From Spirochaetia bacterium (GTDB lineage Bacteria > Spirochaetota > Spirochaetia > Sphaerochaetales > Sphaerochaetaceae): DNA of 64,000 nt. Under the pieces are notes generated by a model. The model was not told where the DNA came from. It ran no database searches and saw nothing but the letters and a program-made list of their open reading frames with translations. The first letter of the stretch is position 1; each line of letters opens with the position of its first letter. The position numbers and the translations under genes are program-made. The stretch covers positions 3,086,784-3,150,783 of the forward strand of contig JAKVOU010000001.1 in the NCBI GenBank assembly GCA_022482625.1. The letters run 5' to 3'. Below, one piece after another: positions 53,032-60,275 of this stretch.

Positions 53032-53058
53032 TTGACACAACTTAGGTGAAAGTATAAG
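53032..53058 (+). promoter_or_regulatory. his operon promoter
   Basis: A perfect TTGACA (53032-53037) is followed by TATAAG at 53053-53058 (spacing 15), or by TAAGGT with spacing 17. Transcription would start near 53065-53067, only a few bases before the leader-peptide ATG at 53068. Confidence 0.65.
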
Positions 53059-53067
53059 GTGCACAGT

Positions 53068-53112
53068 ATGAAGATTACAACAACCAGAATCCATCATCAT
53101 TACGTGTTTTAA
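53068..53112 (+). CDS. hisL: Histidine operon leader peptide
   Basis: A 14-codon reading frame encodes MKITTTRIHHHYVF, with three consecutive His codons (53092-53100) close before the stop TAA. It lies between the his promoter and a strong hairpin upstream of hisG. Ribosome stalling at the His codons when charged tRNA-His is scarce would decide which RNA structure forms, as in enterobacterial hisL. AGGTG stands 6 bases before the ATG, but it may be at or before the transcription start. The frame is too short for gene-finding programs. Its composition and position are hard to explain by chance. Confidence 0.85.
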   Translation: MKITTTRIHHHYVF

Positions 53113-53179
53113 CCGACCTAAGCGTGGTGTGGATTGTTGTTCATGTGCAAGGGCCCCCGCTTAGCGGGGGCCTTAATTT
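53081..53179 (+). promoter_or_regulatory. his attenuator with alternative hairpins
   Basis: Region 1 (CAAC at 53081-53084 and AATCCA at 53088-53093) pairs with TGGATT-GTTG (53130-53139). An antiterminator pairing joins CTAAGCG-T-GG (53118-53127) to the left arm of the terminator (53155-53164; 9 of 10 bases pair). The terminator is the 9-bp stem GGCCCCCGC-TTA-GCGGGGGCC (53152-53172) followed by TTAATTTA. The terminator arm is therefore shared by two exclusive structures, the hallmark of attenuation. The T-run is modest. Confidence 0.8.
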
Positions 53180-53196
53180 ATATTCGGGAGTGAGAA

Positions 53197-54057
53197 ATGG
53201 AACCGAGACTGAAGATTGCATTGCAGAAAAAAGGCAGGCTGAGTGAACAAAGTTTGGAAATCATCAAGACCTGTGGTATCAAGTTTGGCTGTGACTCCAG
53301 GGTCCTGAAGGAGTCTGCTTCAAATTTCCCGCTTGATTTTCTGTATGTGCGTGATGATGATATTCCCCGTTACGTCGAAGAGGGCGTAGCTGATGTGGGG
53401 ATCGTCGGGCGTAATGAATTCGATGAACAGGGACTTGACCTGAAAGTTATCAAAGACTTGGGCTTTGCTTCCTGCCGGCTTTCGGTTGCGGTTCCTCATG
53501 ATTTCGCCTATGCAGGCCTGCAATCTCTTGAAGGGATGCGCATAGCTACCAGCTATCCCCATATCCTTGGAAAAATTCTGAAAGAGCATGGAGTATCCGC
53601 ATCTTTCGTTACGGTTACCGGTTCTGTTGAGATTACTCCTGCTATCGGAGTTGCTGATGCTATCTGTGACTTGGTTTCCACAGGTGCTACCTTGGCTATG
53701 AACGGACTGAGGGAAGTAGAGCCGATTTATTATAGCAGTGCGGTGATGATTGCCAGTAGAGATCTGGGAGCTGCACAAGGGGATATCCTGACAAGGCTGC
53801 TGCTGCGGATTGATGCTGTGATGCAGGCAAGGAACTATAAATATATCATGTTCAATTTACCGGAGGAGCAACTTGATCAGGTTGCCAAGATTGTAGGTGG
53901 TATGAAAAGTCCTACGGTAACTCCTTTGATGGAAAAAGGATGGATTTCTGTTCAGACTGTTATCAGTGAAGATACATTCTGGGAAGATTTCGAACAGCTC
54001 AAGGCCTTGGGTGCCCAAGGTATCCTTGTCACACCTATTGAAAAGATGACGGAGTAA
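53197..54057 (+). CDS. hisG: ATP phosphoribosyltransferase (long form)
   Basis: This 286-residue enzyme catalyses the first step of histidine synthesis, joining ATP and PRPP. It is the long HisG form, with two catalytic lobes (IALQKKGRLSEQS at the start; ICDLVSTGATLAMNG, the PRPP loop) and a C-terminal ACT-like regulatory domain (YKYIMFNLPEEQLDQVAKIV). That domain gives feedback inhibition by histidine, so no HisZ partner is needed. It is the first gene of the operon, 25 bases after the attenuator stem. GGGAG precedes the ATG. Confidence 0.96.
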   Translation: MEPRLKIALQKKGRLSEQSLEIIKTCGIKFGCDSRVLKESASNFPLDFLYVRDDDIPRYVEEGVADVGIVGRNEFDEQGLDLKVIKDLGFASCRLSVAVPHDFAYAGLQSLEGMRIATSYPHILGKILKEHGVSASFVTVTGSVEITPAIGVADAICDLVSTGATLAMNGLREVEPIYYSSAVMIASRDLGAAQGDILTRLLLRIDAVMQARNYKYIMFNLPEEQLDQVAKIVGGMKSPTVTPLMEKGWISVQTVISEDTFWEDFEQLKALGAQGILVTPIEKMTE

Positions 54058-54061
54058 GCTT

Positions 54062-55366
54062 ATGATGCTGGATTTTACCTATGATCCGAAAGGGGATGCC
54101 CTGCAAAGGTTGCTTTCCCGGAGTATGGCGGATGACCAGGCTGTCAAGGAGACTGTCTGCAAGGTACTTGCAAAGGTCAAGACTGAAGGCGATACTGCCT
54201 TGTTTGACTTTGCACGGCAATTTGATCATGTGGAGCTTTCCGCTTTGCGGGTCACGCAGGAAGAAATTGCAGAGGCAAAAAGGCTTGTTGATCCGAGGCT
54301 CAAGAAAGCAATCTGCCAAGCTGCCGACAATATCACAGCTTTTCATAAAGCAGAATTGCCTCAAGCGGAGTATCTGGAACCCATGGAAGGCATAGAACTT
54401 TCTCGGAAGATTGTCCCGATTTCATCTGTGGGACTGTATGTCCCAGGAGGGACTGCCCCTTTGTTTTCGACAGTACTTATGTTGTCTTTGCCAGCAAAGG
54501 TTGCCGGGTGCCGGTCCGTGACGCTTTGTACACCTCCAGGGAAAGATGGGACCATACATCCGGCTCTGCTTTTTGCTGCAGATCTTGGAGGCGTCACTAA
54601 CATCTACAAATGCGGTGGAGCGCAGGCAATTGCGGCCATGGCTTACGGAACACAGACCATAGCTCCTGTAGAAAAGATATTCGGGCCTGGAAATCGCTTT
54701 GTTACCACTGCAAAGATGTTGGTCAGTGAAACAGTTGCCATTGATATGCCTGCGGGTCCAAGTGAAGTAATGGTCATAGCTGACCCGACTTCTGACCCTG
54801 CATTCGTTGCCAGTGATTTTCTCAGTCAGGCAGAACATGGCAAAGACAGTCAGTCAATGCTTGTTGTCATTGGAGATGAAAAAGAAGCAACAGCATACAT
54901 GCAGAAGATTGAACGGGCTTTGGAAAAACAACTGTCACAGTTGCCTCGGCATGAATATCTGCTTCCTTCCCTTGCACATTCCCATGCCTTGGCGGTGCCT
55001 TCTCTTGAACGTTGTGCACAGGTTGTCAATGCCTATGCACCCGAACACCTTGTCATCAATCTGAGTGAACCTGAAAAACTTGCTGATCTGGTAGAAAATG
55101 CCGGTTCAATTTTCCTAGGTCCTTGGTCCTGTGAAAGTGCCGGTGACTATGCCAGTGGTACAAACCATACACTTCCTACCAGAGGATGGGCCAGAAGCTA
55201 CAGCGGGGTGAGTACAGATTCTTTTCTGAAGAAAATAACGATTCAGAAACTTTCCAAGGCTGGGCTGGAGCATCTTTCAGATACGATTGTTACTATGGCT
55301 GAGGGTGAGATGCTTTCTGCCCATGCCAATGCAGTACAGGTCAGGCTGGGAAAGGAGAAGAAATAA
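54062..55366 (+). CDS. hisD: Histidinol dehydrogenase
   Basis: This 434-residue zinc enzyme oxidises histidinol to histidine in two NAD+-dependent steps, the last of the pathway. It shows GLYVPGGTAPLFSTVLM (cofactor region), GPSEVMVIAD, the zinc and catalytic segment LSQAEHGKDSQS, YAPEHLVIN and the terminal AHANAVQVRL (zinc His). It starts 4 bases after hisG, with GGAG 7 bases before the ATG, and shares one base with hisC (TAATG). Confidence 0.97.
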   Translation: MMLDFTYDPKGDALQRLLSRSMADDQAVKETVCKVLAKVKTEGDTALFDFARQFDHVELSALRVTQEEIAEAKRLVDPRLKKAICQAADNITAFHKAELPQAEYLEPMEGIELSRKIVPISSVGLYVPGGTAPLFSTVLMLSLPAKVAGCRSVTLCTPPGKDGTIHPALLFAADLGGVTNIYKCGGAQAIAAMAYGTQTIAPVEKIFGPGNRFVTTAKMLVSETVAIDMPAGPSEVMVIADPTSDPAFVASDFLSQAEHGKDSQSMLVVIGDEKEATAYMQKIERALEKQLSQLPRHEYLLPSLAHSHALAVPSLERCAQVVNAYAPEHLVINLSEPEKLADLVENAGSIFLGPWSCESAGDYASGTNHTLPTRGWARSYSGVSTDSFLKKITIQKLSKAGLEHLSDTIVTMAEGEMLSAHANAVQVRLGKEKK

Positions 55367-56415
55367 TGAAAGAATTACTCAGGGATAATATCCGCAACCT
55401 TGTACCATATCGCTGTGCCAGGGATGATTTCAGCGGTAAAGCAGAAGTGTTTGTGGATGCCAATGAGAACTGGAAGCAGTTTGTCGGCCAAACACAGTAT
55501 AACCGTTATCCTGATCCTGCTTCTGCTGCATTGCGAAAAGGTATCGAAGAGGTGATGGGGCTTCCTTTTGGGATGACTGTAGTCGGAAACGGCAGTGACG
55601 AGATCATAGATAATCTGATTCGGATGTTCTGTAATCCTGGGAAGGATGCCATCGTTATCTTTCCTCCTACCTATGGTGCCTATAAGGTGTTTGCCGATAT
55701 AAATGATGTCGCTTCGGTAGAACTTCCACTCAAGGAAGACTTCAGCCTTGATATGGAAAGTTTGAGGAAATTCTGCCATACAGCTGATTCAAAGTATAAG
55801 CTTATGTTTGTCTGCTCTCCTAATAATCCGAGCGGAAATGCACATCCTTTGGAACAGATAGAAGAAACTTGCCGATTATTCAAAGGTATCGTGGTGGTTG
55901 ACGAAGCCTATGTTGATTTTTCTGAAAAGGGGAGCGCACGCTCACTTCAGTCAAAATATGATAACTTGGTCATCCTTCGTACTTTTTCAAAATGCTGGGG
56001 ACTTGCGGGCGCTCGGATCGGTATCCTTGTAGCTTCTCCTGAACTTTGTGCCGTGATGCGGTCAATGAAATATCCGTATAATATCGGAAGGCCAAGCCAG
56101 GAAGTTGCCGTCAATTGCTTGCTTGCAGCGGATCAGGTACATAAGGAAATGAAAGCAATCATTGAAAGACGGGAACGATATCAGCAGCTTTACAAGACTC
56201 TTTCCTGTGTGAAGGAAGTTTATCCAAGCGATGCAAATTTTTTGCTTGTGAAGACTTCTGATGCTGATAGCATCTGGTCTTATCTTGCAGGAAAAGGAAT
56301 AATCGTGAGGAACCGTACCAATCAGTTCGGTTGCAGCGGCTGTCTGAGGATTTCGATTGGAAGCGAAGAAGAATGTCGGAAGACATATGAGGCCATTGCC
56401 TCATGGGAGGCATAA
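55366..56415 (+). CDS. hisC: Histidinol-phosphate aminotransferase
   Basis: This 349-residue PLP enzyme converts imidazole-acetol phosphate and glutamate to histidinol phosphate. It has the conserved VFVDANENW near the N-terminus, VGNGSDEIID, CSPNNPSGN, VVDEAYVDFSE and the PLP-lysine segment TFSKCWGLAGARIG. The length is normal. The ATG overlaps the hisD stop by one base, with AAAGGAG upstream. It ends by overlapping hisB in the same way. Confidence 0.96.
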   Translation: MKELLRDNIRNLVPYRCARDDFSGKAEVFVDANENWKQFVGQTQYNRYPDPASAALRKGIEEVMGLPFGMTVVGNGSDEIIDNLIRMFCNPGKDAIVIFPPTYGAYKVFADINDVASVELPLKEDFSLDMESLRKFCHTADSKYKLMFVCSPNNPSGNAHPLEQIEETCRLFKGIVVVDEAYVDFSEKGSARSLQSKYDNLVILRTFSKCWGLAGARIGILVASPELCAVMRSMKYPYNIGRPSQEVAVNCLLAADQVHKEMKAIIERRERYQQLYKTLSCVKEVYPSDANFLLVKTSDADSIWSYLAGKGIIVRNRTNQFGCSGCLRISIGSEEECRKTYEAIASWEA

Positions 56416-57563
56416 TGAAAGAACATCCGTTTGTCCCTGTTTTGTTTGTGGATAGGGAAGGGACAATACTTCAGGATACCCGCTTGGATGGATTTGGCAA
56501 AGTCCATTGGATCCCTGGCGTTTTTGCAGGACTTTCAAAGATCAGGAAGTTCGGAGATTTTTCTTTGGTTATGCTTTCCCAGCAGATGGGCGTCGGGACA
56601 GCTGCTTTTTCCCGTGAGTCGTTCCTTCCTGTACATCAATGGGTATTGGATACACTTGCTGGTGAGCGAATATGTTTCGATGATGTCCATGTTGATTTTT
56701 CCTTGGAAGGAGACAACTGTCCTGGACATTTGCCTTCTCCTTCCTTGTTGGCTTCCTATACTGCAGGGGCATATGATTTGGATCATTCTTTCCTGATCGG
56801 CGGCAAGCTGATGGATGTGGAGCTTGCGTCTTCTCTTGGATGTAAAGTCATCCTGTTTGCTGAGAAACAAGCCGGTGCAGCATTGCTTGCTGACAGAAAG
56901 GAACTTGCACCTGCAGTTGTTTTTATAAGCGATGATTGGCAGGAGATTGCATCCTTCCTGGTCGGAGGAGAAGAGCGGGAAGATCGCAAGGCCACGATAA
57001 TCCGCAATACGGCAGAGACAAGGATTACCTTATCCGTCAACCTTGATGGGACCGGCAAGGGAAACATGCATACAGGTATAGGATTCTTGGACCACATGCT
57101 GGCTCAGGTACTTCGTCATAGCCAGATTGATATGGATCTCTCGGCAGACGGTGACTTGGAGGTCGATGAGCATCATACCGTGGAAGATATTGCCATTGTC
57201 ATGGGGAGTGCAATCAAGCAGGCACTGGGGGATAAATGGGGTATATCCCGCTATGGTTTTGACCTGTTGCCTATGGATGATGTACTTGCCCAAGGTGCCA
57301 TTGACTTTTCGGGTCGACCATTCTTTCATTGGAATGTACCTTTCAGGAGAGAATATGTAGGAACGTTTCCGACTGAGATGTTTGGACATTTCTTCAAGTC
57401 ATTCAGTGATGCAGCTGCCTGCAACCTGGACCTCAAGGTAAGCCAGGGAAATGCCCATCATATGATTGAGGCTGTATTCAAATGCTTTGCGAAATCATTG
57501 AAGATGGCCGTCCATCGATATCCATATAGCAATGAGTTGCCGTCGACCAAAGGAGTACTGTGA
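56415..57563 (+). CDS. hisB: HisB: degenerate HAD histidinol-phosphatase domain fused to imidazoleglycerol-phosphate dehydratase
   Basis: This 382-residue two-domain protein is organised like enterobacterial HisB. The C-terminal dehydratase domain (about 190-380) looks intact: GIGFLDHMLAQ, DEHHTVEDIAI, GNAHHMIEAVFK. The N-terminal HAD phosphatase domain is altered at most motifs. DRDGT is DREGT (Asp13 kept, the acid/base Asp now Glu15). TNQDGLGT is SQQMGVGT. The zinc-binding CxH...CxC loop is reduced to a single Cys in DNCPGHLP. GDRxTD is GGKLMD. Phosphatase activity is therefore doubtful. The ATG at 56415 has GGAGG 4 bases upstream and shares a base with the hisC stop. Confidence 0.93.
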   Translation: MKEHPFVPVLFVDREGTILQDTRLDGFGKVHWIPGVFAGLSKIRKFGDFSLVMLSQQMGVGTAAFSRESFLPVHQWVLDTLAGERICFDDVHVDFSLEGDNCPGHLPSPSLLASYTAGAYDLDHSFLIGGKLMDVELASSLGCKVILFAEKQAGAALLADRKELAPAVVFISDDWQEIASFLVGGEEREDRKATIIRNTAETRITLSVNLDGTGKGNMHTGIGFLDHMLAQVLRHSQIDMDLSADGDLEVDEHHTVEDIAIVMGSAIKQALGDKWGISRYGFDLLPMDDVLAQGAIDFSGRPFFHWNVPFRREYVGTFPTEMFGHFFKSFSDAAACNLDLKVSQGNAHHMIEAVFKCFAKSLKMAVHRYPYSNELPSTKGVL

Positions 57564-58157
57564 TGATTGCCATAGTAAAATACAATGCGGGGAATGTACG
57601 GAGCGTGCTCTGTGCATTACAGAGACTGGGCGCAACAGCCAAGGTAAGTGATGACATCCAGTTCCTGAAAAAGGCCGACCATGTCATTTTTCCCTGGTGT
57701 AGGTGAGGCTTCTACAGCCATGGAGTATCTGCAGTCAAAAGGTCTGGACAAGGTGCTGGTTTCATTGAAACGACCTTTCCTTGGCATTTGCCTAGGACTT
57801 CAGCTCATGTGCCGTCATAGTGAGGAAAACGATGTGGATTGTCTGGGCATTTTCCCTACGCTTGTGCAGCGTTTTCCTCCATCTGAGGGAGTAAAGATTC
57901 CGCATGTAGGTTGGAATATGCTTGAAACAAAAGATGATCCTTTGCTGAAGAATGTTGCTGACGGGCAATTCTGCTACTTTGTGCATAGCTATTATGTGCC
58001 TTCATGCAGGGAGACTATAGCTGATTGTACCTATGATGGGATCAAATTCTCAGCTTCGTTGCACAAGGACAATTTCTGGGGATGCCAGTTCCATCCTGAA
58101 AAGAGCGGTCATGTAGGAGAACAGATATTGAAGAATTTCCTGGAGATCCGTCTATGA
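57563..58157 (+). pseudogene. hisH: Imidazole glycerol phosphate synthase subunit HisH, interrupted by a +1 frameshift
   Basis: HisH is the glutaminase that feeds ammonia to HisF. The ATG at 57563 (sharing a base with the hisB stop, AGGAG 7 bases upstream) opens a frame reading MIAIVKYNAGNVRSVLCALQ. It reaches DHVIFPWCR and a TGA at 57704. Removing one base in TTTTTCCC (57687-57694) restores IFPGVGEASTAMEY, the expected family sequence, and the rest is intact: GICLGLQLM (catalytic Cys), HVGWNML and QFHPEKSGHVG (catalytic His/Glu). One extra base in a homopolymer could be a sequencing or assembly error, a real mutation, or a recoding site (CCC-T). With all other his genes complete, an error or slippage seems likelier than pathway loss. 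Confidence 0.85.
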
Positions 58158-58891
58158 TCATCATACCTGCGATTGATTTGATTGACGGACAACTGGTCAG
58201 ACTGAGCAAAGGTGACTATAACAGCAAAAAGGCATATGGAAAGAATCCTGTGGATATGGCCTTGGCTTTTGAAGCTGCAGGACTCACACATCTGCATCTG
58301 GTTGATCTTGACGGGGCCAAGAGCGGAAGCCCGAAGAATCTTGGTGTCCTTGAAGCCATTGCTTCTGCTACTTCCCTTGAGATTGATTTCGGTGGAGGTG
58401 TCAAGACCACGGATGCGCTTGCTGCGGCTTTCTCTGCCGGAGCATCTAAAGTTACCTGTGGTTCCATAGCGGCATCAGACAGCAGGTTGGTCATGGAATG
58501 GCTTGATAAGTTCGGAGCTGGCAGGCTTGTCCTTGGAGCTGACAGCAGGAACGGCAGGATTGCAACCGTAGGTTGGCTTGAAACGACAGGGCTTGATGTT
58601 TTTTCTTTTATCGGCAGCTATCTGGAACGTGGCTTGAAGAGGGTCGTATGTACTGATATTTCCCGTGATGGCATGCTTGCTGGGCCGGCTTTTGAACTCT
58701 ATGACAAGCTGATTGCTACCTATGGAAAGAAAATTGAGCTGGTGGCCTCAGGAGGAGTCAGTTCCCTGGCTGATTTGGAAAAACTTGCGGGAAAGGGTGT
58801 CTTTGCAGCCATTGTAGGCAAGGCAATCTATGAAGGAAATGTAAGTTTGAAAGAACTGAAAGATTTCGAGGAGGAACATCATGCTGGCTAA
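58154..58891 (+). CDS. hisA: ProFAR isomerase (phosphoribosylformimino-AICAR-phosphate isomerase)
   Basis: This 245-residue beta/alpha barrel carries out the fourth step of the pathway. It has [15 protein letters not shown] with the first catalytic Asp, the phosphate sites FGGGVKT and ASGGVSSL, and [13 protein letters not shown] near the second catalytic Asp. It overlaps hisH by 4 bases (ATGA) and hisF by 11, so it is translated by coupling. Confidence 0.95.
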
Positions 58892-59657
58892 AAGGATCAT
58901 ACCTTGCCTTGATGTCAGGAACGGCAGGACTGTCAAGGGAATAAACTTTATCAATCTGAGGGATGCAGGTGATGCTGTCGAATTGGCAAAGATCTACAGT
59001 GACCAAGGAGCTGATGAACTGACGTTTCTTGATATCACTGCTACGGTTGAGGGACGAAGTACCTTTGCTTCACTGGTCAAGGATATTTCTTCGGCAATAA
59101 ACATTCCGTTTACAGTCGGTGGCGGTATCAGAAATGTAGCCGATGTAGGTGTATTGCTTGAAGCCGGGGCTGACAAGATATCGATCAACAGCAAGGCTGT
59201 TGCCCAACCTGCCATAATTGATGGACTTGCCCATAATTTCGGGAGTCAGTGTGTCGTATGTGCCATCGATGCACGGATGAATGATGAATTCTCAAAAGAT
59301 AATCTGCAAGGCTGGGAAGTCTATGTCAATGGTGGCCGTACACCGACCGGAATCGATGCCTTTGCATGGGCAAAGGAAGCTGAATCTCGTGGGGCAGGTG
59401 AAATATTGCTGACTTCAATGGACCATGACGGAACCAAAGGTGGTTTTGCCCTTGACCTAACCGCAAGAATTAGCGAAAGTGTCTCTATACCGGTAATTGC
59501 CAGTGGGGGAGCTGGCTGTATGGAAGATTTTATTGATGTCTTTACCAGAGGAAAGGCCGATGCAGCCCTTGCTGCTTCGATTTTTCATTTCGGGGAAATC
59601 AAGATTCCTGAGTTGAAGAAATACCTTTCTTTGCATGGAATAAGTGTCAGGACGTAG
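58881..59657 (+). CDS. hisF: Imidazole glycerol phosphate synthase subunit HisF
   Basis: This 258-residue cyclase barrel partners HisH. It uses ammonia to form imidazole glycerol phosphate and AICAR. Its motifs are [15 protein letters not shown] (catalytic Asp11), [30 protein letters not shown] (catalytic Asp130 region) and [11 protein letters not shown]. All are complete. If HisH were truly absent, HisF could still work on free ammonia but inefficiently. GAGGAGG precedes the ATG within hisA. Confidence 0.97.
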
Positions 59658-59669
59658 AGGGAGAGATGT

Positions 59670-60275
59670 ATGGAAGTCGATTTCAACAAGATGGGTGGCC
59701 TGGTACCGGCGATCGTACAGGATGCGAGAACCGGATGTGTGCTGATGCTTGGCTACATGAATGAGGAAAGCCTGAAGATTACCCAGGAAAGGAAACTGGT
59801 GACATTCTGGTCGCGGAGCAGGCAACAGCTATGGACGAAAGGTGAAACCAGCGGAAATTACCTGCAGCTGCGGGACATCAAGGTTGACTGTGACAAGGAT
59901 ACCTTGCTTGTCAAGGCAATTCCTATGGGACCGGTCTGCCATACTGGTGCCGATACTTGTTTCTTTGAAGACAACAAGATGGAAGACAGCGATACCAAGG
60001 ATTTCCTTTTCTATCTGGAAAGCATCATTGAGGACCGTAGGGATTATCCTGTGGAAGGTTCATATACCAACAGCCTTTTTTCCAGGGGTATCAACAGAAT
60101 TGCCAAGAAAGTCGGGGAAGAAGCTGTGGAATTGGTCATTGAATCCAAAGACAATGACAAATCCCTGCTTATTGGTGAGGCTGCTGACTTGCTTTATCAC
60201 TTGCAGGTGCTCCTGACATACAAGGATGTCAAACTTATGGAAGTCCTTGAATGTCTGAAGGAAAGGCATAGCTGA
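59670..60275 (+). CDS. hisI: HisIE: phosphoribosyl-AMP cyclohydrolase/phosphoribosyl-ATP pyrophosphohydrolase
   Basis: This 201-residue fusion performs steps two and three. The N-terminal cyclohydrolase domain (about 1-110) has GYMNEESL, FWSRSRQQLWTKGETSGN, DCDKDTLL and GPVCHTGADTCF, including zinc and magnesium ligands. The C-terminal pyrophosphohydrolase domain (about 115-201) has YTNSLFSRGINRIAKKVGEE. It is the last his gene, 12 bases after hisF. It ends 2 bases from convergent radC without a hairpin terminator. Confidence 0.95.
   Translation: MEVDFNKMGGLVPAIVQDARTGCVLMLGYMNEESLKITQERKLVTFWSRSRQQLWTKGETSGNYLQLRDIKVDCDKDTLLVKAIPMGPVCHTGADTCFFEDNKMEDSDTKDFLFYLESIIEDRRDYPVEGSYTNSLFSRGINRIAKKVGEEAVELVIESKDNDKSLLIGEAADLLYHLQVLLTYKDVKLMEVLECLKERHS

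Follow-up and report, generated by a model that had tools for sequence, protein, structure and literature searches.

Does a 14-codon reading frame with three consecutive histidine codons, found in the DNA of a spirochaete, control a his operon by ribosome-mediated transcription attenuation, and where would its transcript begin? Histidine attenuation of the E. coli type is textbook knowledge. It is usually presented as a proteobacterial story with some cases in Firmicutes (PMC9413887). The window analyzed here is a stretch of 64,000 nucleotides from a Spirochaetia bacterium; among named organisms, Sphaerochaeta, Pleomorphochaeta and other Spirochaetales are closest to it, in agreement with the spirochaete origin that an earlier sequence-only reading had assumed.

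A histidine leader in front of a complete his operon

The frame proposed by that reading is present in the sequence at 53068–53112, and it is followed by two alternative pairings and a terminator hairpin:

53068–53112, + strand: His leader peptide ORF, ATG to TAA, 14 codons, MKITTTRIHHHYVF; homologous ORFs in relatives
53092–53100, + strand: three consecutive His codons (CAT), the putative sensor codons; run of at least 3 in 47/49 relatives
53075–53101, + strand: 5′ arm of the anti-antiterminator, partner 53123–53148; −18.0 kcal/mol and swap test
53123–53148, + strand: 3′ arm of the anti-antiterminator; folding energy and swap test
53118–53131, + strand: 5′ arm of the antiterminator, core CTAAGCG at 53118–53124; folding and swap test
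53152–53165, + strand: 3′ arm of the antiterminator, identical with the terminator left arm plus loop, core CGCTTAG at 53158–53164; folding and swap test
53150–53174, + strand: predicted intrinsic terminator hairpin, then a poor U tract (AATTTATATT); folding and covariation in relatives

These elements lie directly 5′ of a complete hisG-D-C-B(NB)-H-A-F-IE operon, the genes of which all run in one direction, to 60275:

53186–53190, + strand: Shine–Dalgarno sequence of hisG, GGGAG; similar sequences before hisG in 46/49 relatives
53197–54057, + strand: hisG, long form (NCBIfam TIGR00070 and TIGR03455)
54062–55366, + strand: hisD (TIGR00069)
55366–56415, + strand: hisC (TIGR01141)
56403–57563, + strand: hisB, phosphatase–dehydratase fusion (HisNB); full-length match to PRK05446, 386 bits (below the cut-off of 443)
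57563–58157, + strand: hisH, its frame apparently shifted by one base within the T run 57687–57691; profile match and comparison with relatives
58154–58891, + strand: hisA (TIGR00007)
58881–59657, + strand: hisF (TIGR00735)
59670–60275, + strand: hisIE, bifunctional (PRK02759)

The hisH gene reads MIAIVKYNAGN...ADHVIF up to the one-base shift at 57687–57691 and PGVGEAST after it, and is intact in relatives (L202–L204); the frameshift is either a homopolymer error of the assembly or a real break.

Conservation of the leader among relatives

A search of the family (Sphaerochaetaceae) yielded 70 genomes with a long HisG and 10 with a short, distant one, and the regions upstream of hisG were taken for all 70 of the former. 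A short His-run ORF with a terminator hairpin is present in 69 of these 70, the ORF lying about 105–160 nt 5′ of hisG. The 49 non-redundant leaders have a mean length of 14.7 codons, with His making up 27% of their residues compared with 2% in the proteins of the operon; the longest His run is at least three in 47 of them, and residues other than His are unalike between genomes. On inspection, the sole long-HisG genome of the family with no His leader upstream is G087 (loci L104 and L206), where the attenuator has likely been lost. Relatives deprived of the His codons or of the antiterminator complementarity, named by the sequence-only reading as what would speak against it, are, with this one exception, not what the family contains: the leader is kept in 69/70, and both pairings are co-conserved (below).

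The leader follows the type of operon. None of the 11 family genomes with the short HisG has a His-run ORF upstream of it, and no ATG-started His-run ORF was found in 50 hisG upstream regions from other spirochaete families. A long, GTG-started His frame at one of these loci (L149) was taken as chance. In many of the non-family spirochaete genomes searched hisG is not the first gene; 30 non-family loci examined with longer flanks showed no His leader up to 1.5 kb upstream. Outside the phylum, a His-rich leader precedes most Bacteroidota and Calditrichota loci with a related HisG; in a phylum-wide sample, for instance, 26 of 29 have one (L172 is doubtful). L054 is without a leader, and no hisD was recognized behind its hisG. 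The same procedure found the leader of E. coli, used as positive control.

A promoter in fixed register with the leader AUG

The sequence-only reading had not noticed how close the promoter lies to the start codon; the predicted leaderless arrangement is seen through the register of promoter elements in relatives:

53032–53037, + strand: −35 element TTGACA; TTGAC conserved at −36/−35 from the leader ATG in relatives
53055–53060, + strand: −10 element TAAGGT (TAnnnT at −13); position conserved in 38/49 leaders
53053–53058, + strand: alternative −10 register TATAAG, from the sequence

In the window, a 17-nt spacer separates TTGACA from TAAGGT, and the leader ATG begins after 7 further nucleotides. 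TAAGGT is a weak hexamer that a strict consensus scan does not report. When upstream DNA is aligned on the leader ATG, TAnnnT occurs at −12 in 28/49 and at −13 in 5/49 leaders, and at −12 before hisG starts in 0/49. A sigma70-type TTGAC plus TAnnnT in the leaderless register is found in 38 of the 49 non-redundant leaders, a count for which the leader ATG was picked among in-frame ATGs, and three more have the −35 element only. If the most upstream in-frame ATG is strictly used, TAnnnT at −12 is still found in 24/49, compared with 1.4 expected per position; in several of the remaining leaders the more upstream ATG lies 5′ of the promoter and so outside the predicted transcript. Shine–Dalgarno-like sequences precede 46/49 hisG genes, versus 5–6/49 leader ORFs. 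The most likely first nucleotide of the transcript is the A of the leader AUG, with no Shine–Dalgarno sequence ahead of it.

The source genome harbors 78 exact TTGAC-N17–19-TAnnnT-N5–7-ATG sites, whereas the reversed pattern occurs 24 times, an approximately threefold excess, and several of the 78 are at evident gene starts; the genes there presumably include LacI- and TetR-like regulators and an alanyl-tRNA synthetase. Leaderless genes therefore seem common in this genome. No amino-acid run indicative of other leaderless attenuators was seen among 60 of the 78 sites. A published survey treats TANNNT about 12 bp 5′ of the start codon as a mark of leaderless genes, which it places at a few per cent in some spirochaetes (PMC3160421); the window leader, with TAnnnT at −13 and no Shine–Dalgarno sequence, agrees with this description.

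One group of leaders is organized differently. Seven loci of a single genus-level group (L029, L030, L047, L049, L050, L078 and L105) have an AGGAG-type Shine–Dalgarno sequence upstream of the leader; five of them were sampled in the HisG tree, where they make up one clade. Six of the seven carry the same type of promoter further out, beginning 49–74 nt 5′ of the leader ATG, and the subclade keeps both the His run and the terminator. The gain of a Shine–Dalgarno sequence together with the upstream move of the promoter suggests that one lineage switched from leaderless to Shine–Dalgarno-led initiation.

It might be argued from this subclade, which clearly has a 5′ untranslated region with a Shine–Dalgarno sequence, and from the imperfect −10 element of the window, that a classical His attenuator is present whose transcript has an ordinary 5′ untranslated region, its promoter lying further upstream and the TTGAC/TAnnnT pair being secondary or unused. 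We regard this as unlikely: both hexamers keep a fixed distance from the leader ATG across 38/49 diverged leaders, where Shine–Dalgarno sequences are missing, the promoter itself has shifted upstream in the subclade that possesses them, and the published TANNNT criterion points to a leaderless start (PMC3160421).

As a separate observation, five Bacteroidota (L061, L065, L067, L068 and L070) have a TAnnTTTG-like promoter box with its end about 5 nt from the start of the His leader, so that their leaders may be leaderless too; in other Bacteroidota 10–30 nt lie between box and leader start.

Competing RNA structures kept by compensating changes

The sequence-only reading had proposed mutually exclusive pairings in the manner of classical attenuation, and both hold up, in somewhat enlarged form. 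The pairing 53081–53093/53130–53139 is part of a longer helix, 53075–53101/53123–53148 (−18.0 kcal/mol). The pairing claimed between 53118–53127 and the left arm of the terminator has its core at 53118–53124/53158–53164, includes the terminator loop and extends to 53131/53152, the duplex amounting to −13.8 kcal/mol. With the ribosome occupying RNA to about 53104–53107, the position expected for a stall at the His codons, the antiterminator-state fold of 53104–53166 is calculated at −16.7 kcal/mol; without a stalled ribosome, folding predicts that the helix 53075–53101/53123–53148 takes up part of the antiterminator arm. The G+C-rich terminator stem, described earlier as 9 bp, has 9 Watson–Crick pairs, or 11 counting G–U and A–U, and −23.5 kcal/mol on its own.

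The whole leader folds at −47.1 kcal/mol compared with a shuffle mean of −31.7 kcal/mol (z −4.5) and is more stable than all 200 shuffles. Taken alone, the window anti-antiterminator is modestly better than dinucleotide shuffles (P = 0.03) and the antiterminator no better (P = 0.21); that both pairings exceed chance is established by comparison across species rather than by these shuffles.

A hairpin with a T-rich tail lies behind every leader examined. The consensus structure of the 49 aligned leaders is the terminator, 7/8 of its pairs being changed on both sides, and it alone was recovered by RNAalifold on MAFFT alignments because the middle part of the leaders is too diverged to align. As per-leader shuffles are too weak alone, both pairings were assessed by a swap test, in which the pairing of each leader with its own partner is compared with that to the partners of other leaders after removal of row and column means. 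Among Sphaerochaetaceae leaders of <0.88 similarity (49 leaders), this gave z −7.9 for the antiterminator and −7.2 for the anti-antiterminator; at <0.75 (27 leaders) the values were −6.3 and −4.7, and at <0.65, with 10 leaders only, −2.6 and −2.8. Inclusion of the Bacteroidota and Calditrichota leaders gave z values of −5.0 to −10.6. Own pairings beat foreign ones, which indicates that both alternative structures have been kept by compensating changes.

The strong 11-bp stem of the window hairpin runs into 53175–53184 (AATTTATATT), a U tract that is poor (TTAATTTATA) where most relatives have 5–9 T. This casts doubt on the efficiency of termination, and basal read-through may be higher in the window species than in its relatives. 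The poor U tract, and a hairpin end only about 12 nt from the hisG Shine–Dalgarno sequence, would also suit translational attenuation, in which a stalled ribosome frees or hides the ribosome-binding site of hisG rather than acting on termination. Such a mechanism appears improbable, given that T-rich terminators stand behind the leaders of relatives and that the conserved pairings engage the terminator arm, not the Shine–Dalgarno sequence. That a chance His-rich ORF lies beside the ordinary terminator of an upstream gene is scarcely credible: chance might, in isolation, produce three CAT codons with a hairpin behind them, and the window antiterminator does not exceed shuffles, but conservation in 69/70 genomes goes with the operon type, and diverged sequences maintain the two pairings.

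Proposed mechanism

Very probably, the his operon is controlled here by ribosome-mediated transcription attenuation of a leaderless kind. As judged from the promoter register, RNA polymerase would start at, or 1–2 bases from, the A of the leader AUG, and a 70S ribosome would consequently load on the 5′-terminal AUG without a Shine–Dalgarno sequence. A shortage of charged His-tRNA would stall the ribosome at 53092–53100, where it would mask 53075–53101; 53118–53131, thus freed, would pair with 53152–53165 and block the terminator, so that hisGDCBHAF(IE) would be transcribed. With ample histidine, the ribosome would go on to the stop codon and cover or release the region; the antiterminator arm would be taken up by the ribosome itself or by the 53075–53101/53123–53148 pairing, the hairpin 53150–53174 would form and transcription would stop 5′ of hisG.

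Relation to known attenuators

By every feature visible in its sequence this is a classical His attenuator, and one that lies outside the Rfam His_leader family. The search with that model, which the sequence-only reading had recommended, did not pick up the locus: RF00514 gave no match in the window at the gathering threshold (49 bits), nor in the leader up to an E value of 10, and no match in four family relatives (E values up to 0.5), whereas the E. coli control scored 131.6 bits. Weak matches to Thr_leader, STnc490 and other Rfam families (E values of 0.3–3.3) are far under threshold and were taken as chance. There was no match to a T-box riboswitch (His), and an Rfam scan of the whole window returned a tRNA only.

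With hisL of E. coli and Salmonella, the spirochaete leader shares the His-run peptide, the terminator with a competing antiterminator and an upstream pairing, and the position directly before hisG; the GDC(NB)HAF(IE) gene order and fusions behind E. coli hisL are identical to those of the window operon. It differs in being unrecognized by Rfam, in having no Shine–Dalgarno sequence and in a promoter that abuts the AUG. Leaderless leader peptides are known from S. meliloti trpL (PMC7298713) and have been considered in the case of C. glutamicum ilvBNC (PMC11857589); for mycobacterial poly-Cys short ORFs, PMC13236596 cites Canestrari 2020. In these, likewise, an ORF at the 5′ end of the RNA has an amino-acid codon run that controls the downstream operon, but they concern other amino acids and other phyla (Alphaproteobacteria and Actinomycetota), and the spirochaete start is deduced from promoters. 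Firmicutes His attenuators, reported as novel in 2022 (PMC9413887), and Firmicutes leader peptides including those of hisS/hisZ, from 2010 (PMC2965389), are similar in that short peptides with His codon runs precede an attenuator; they belong to different lineages, and the available portions of both papers do not mention a leaderless start. The open-access literature yielded no earlier description of His attenuation in Sphaerochaeta or spirochaetes, which is weak evidence as subscription papers are mostly outside it. The locus is most likely a leaderless variant of classical His attenuation.

Origin of the operon and its attenuator

In the HisG tree, one group with 100/100 support unites Sphaerochaetaceae with E. 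coli, Bacteroidota and Calditrichota, and long branches split the family's HisG from that of other spirochaetes. This grouping, along with the gene order and fusions that are held in common, suggests that operon and attenuator travelled together. Since an AU test does not reject a tree holding all spirochaetes together (P = 0.27), we infer horizontal transfer of the compact operon with its attenuator as likely but not proven. As the sequence-only reading claimed, an enteric design occurs in a spirochaete, but the surprise is smaller than its mention of a distant phylum suggests, because the gene order and fusions are enteric and the HisG lineage is common to Bacteroidota and E. coli.

Probably, the leaderless His attenuator is family-wide, with one subclade since switched to a Shine–Dalgarno sequence, and belongs to an operon-plus-attenuator module common to Spirochaetota, Bacteroidota, Calditrichota and Gammaproteobacteria, its RNA having diverged past database recognition. 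In one spirochaete family, nearly every operon of one type has His attenuation, which is also widespread among Bacteroidota, yet the standard RNA models miss it. A leaderless start is relevant to the question of how translation can keep up behind RNA polymerase from the outset of the transcript. The subclade with an acquired Shine–Dalgarno sequence offers a natural experiment on whether leaderless initiation alters the sensitivity of the attenuator.
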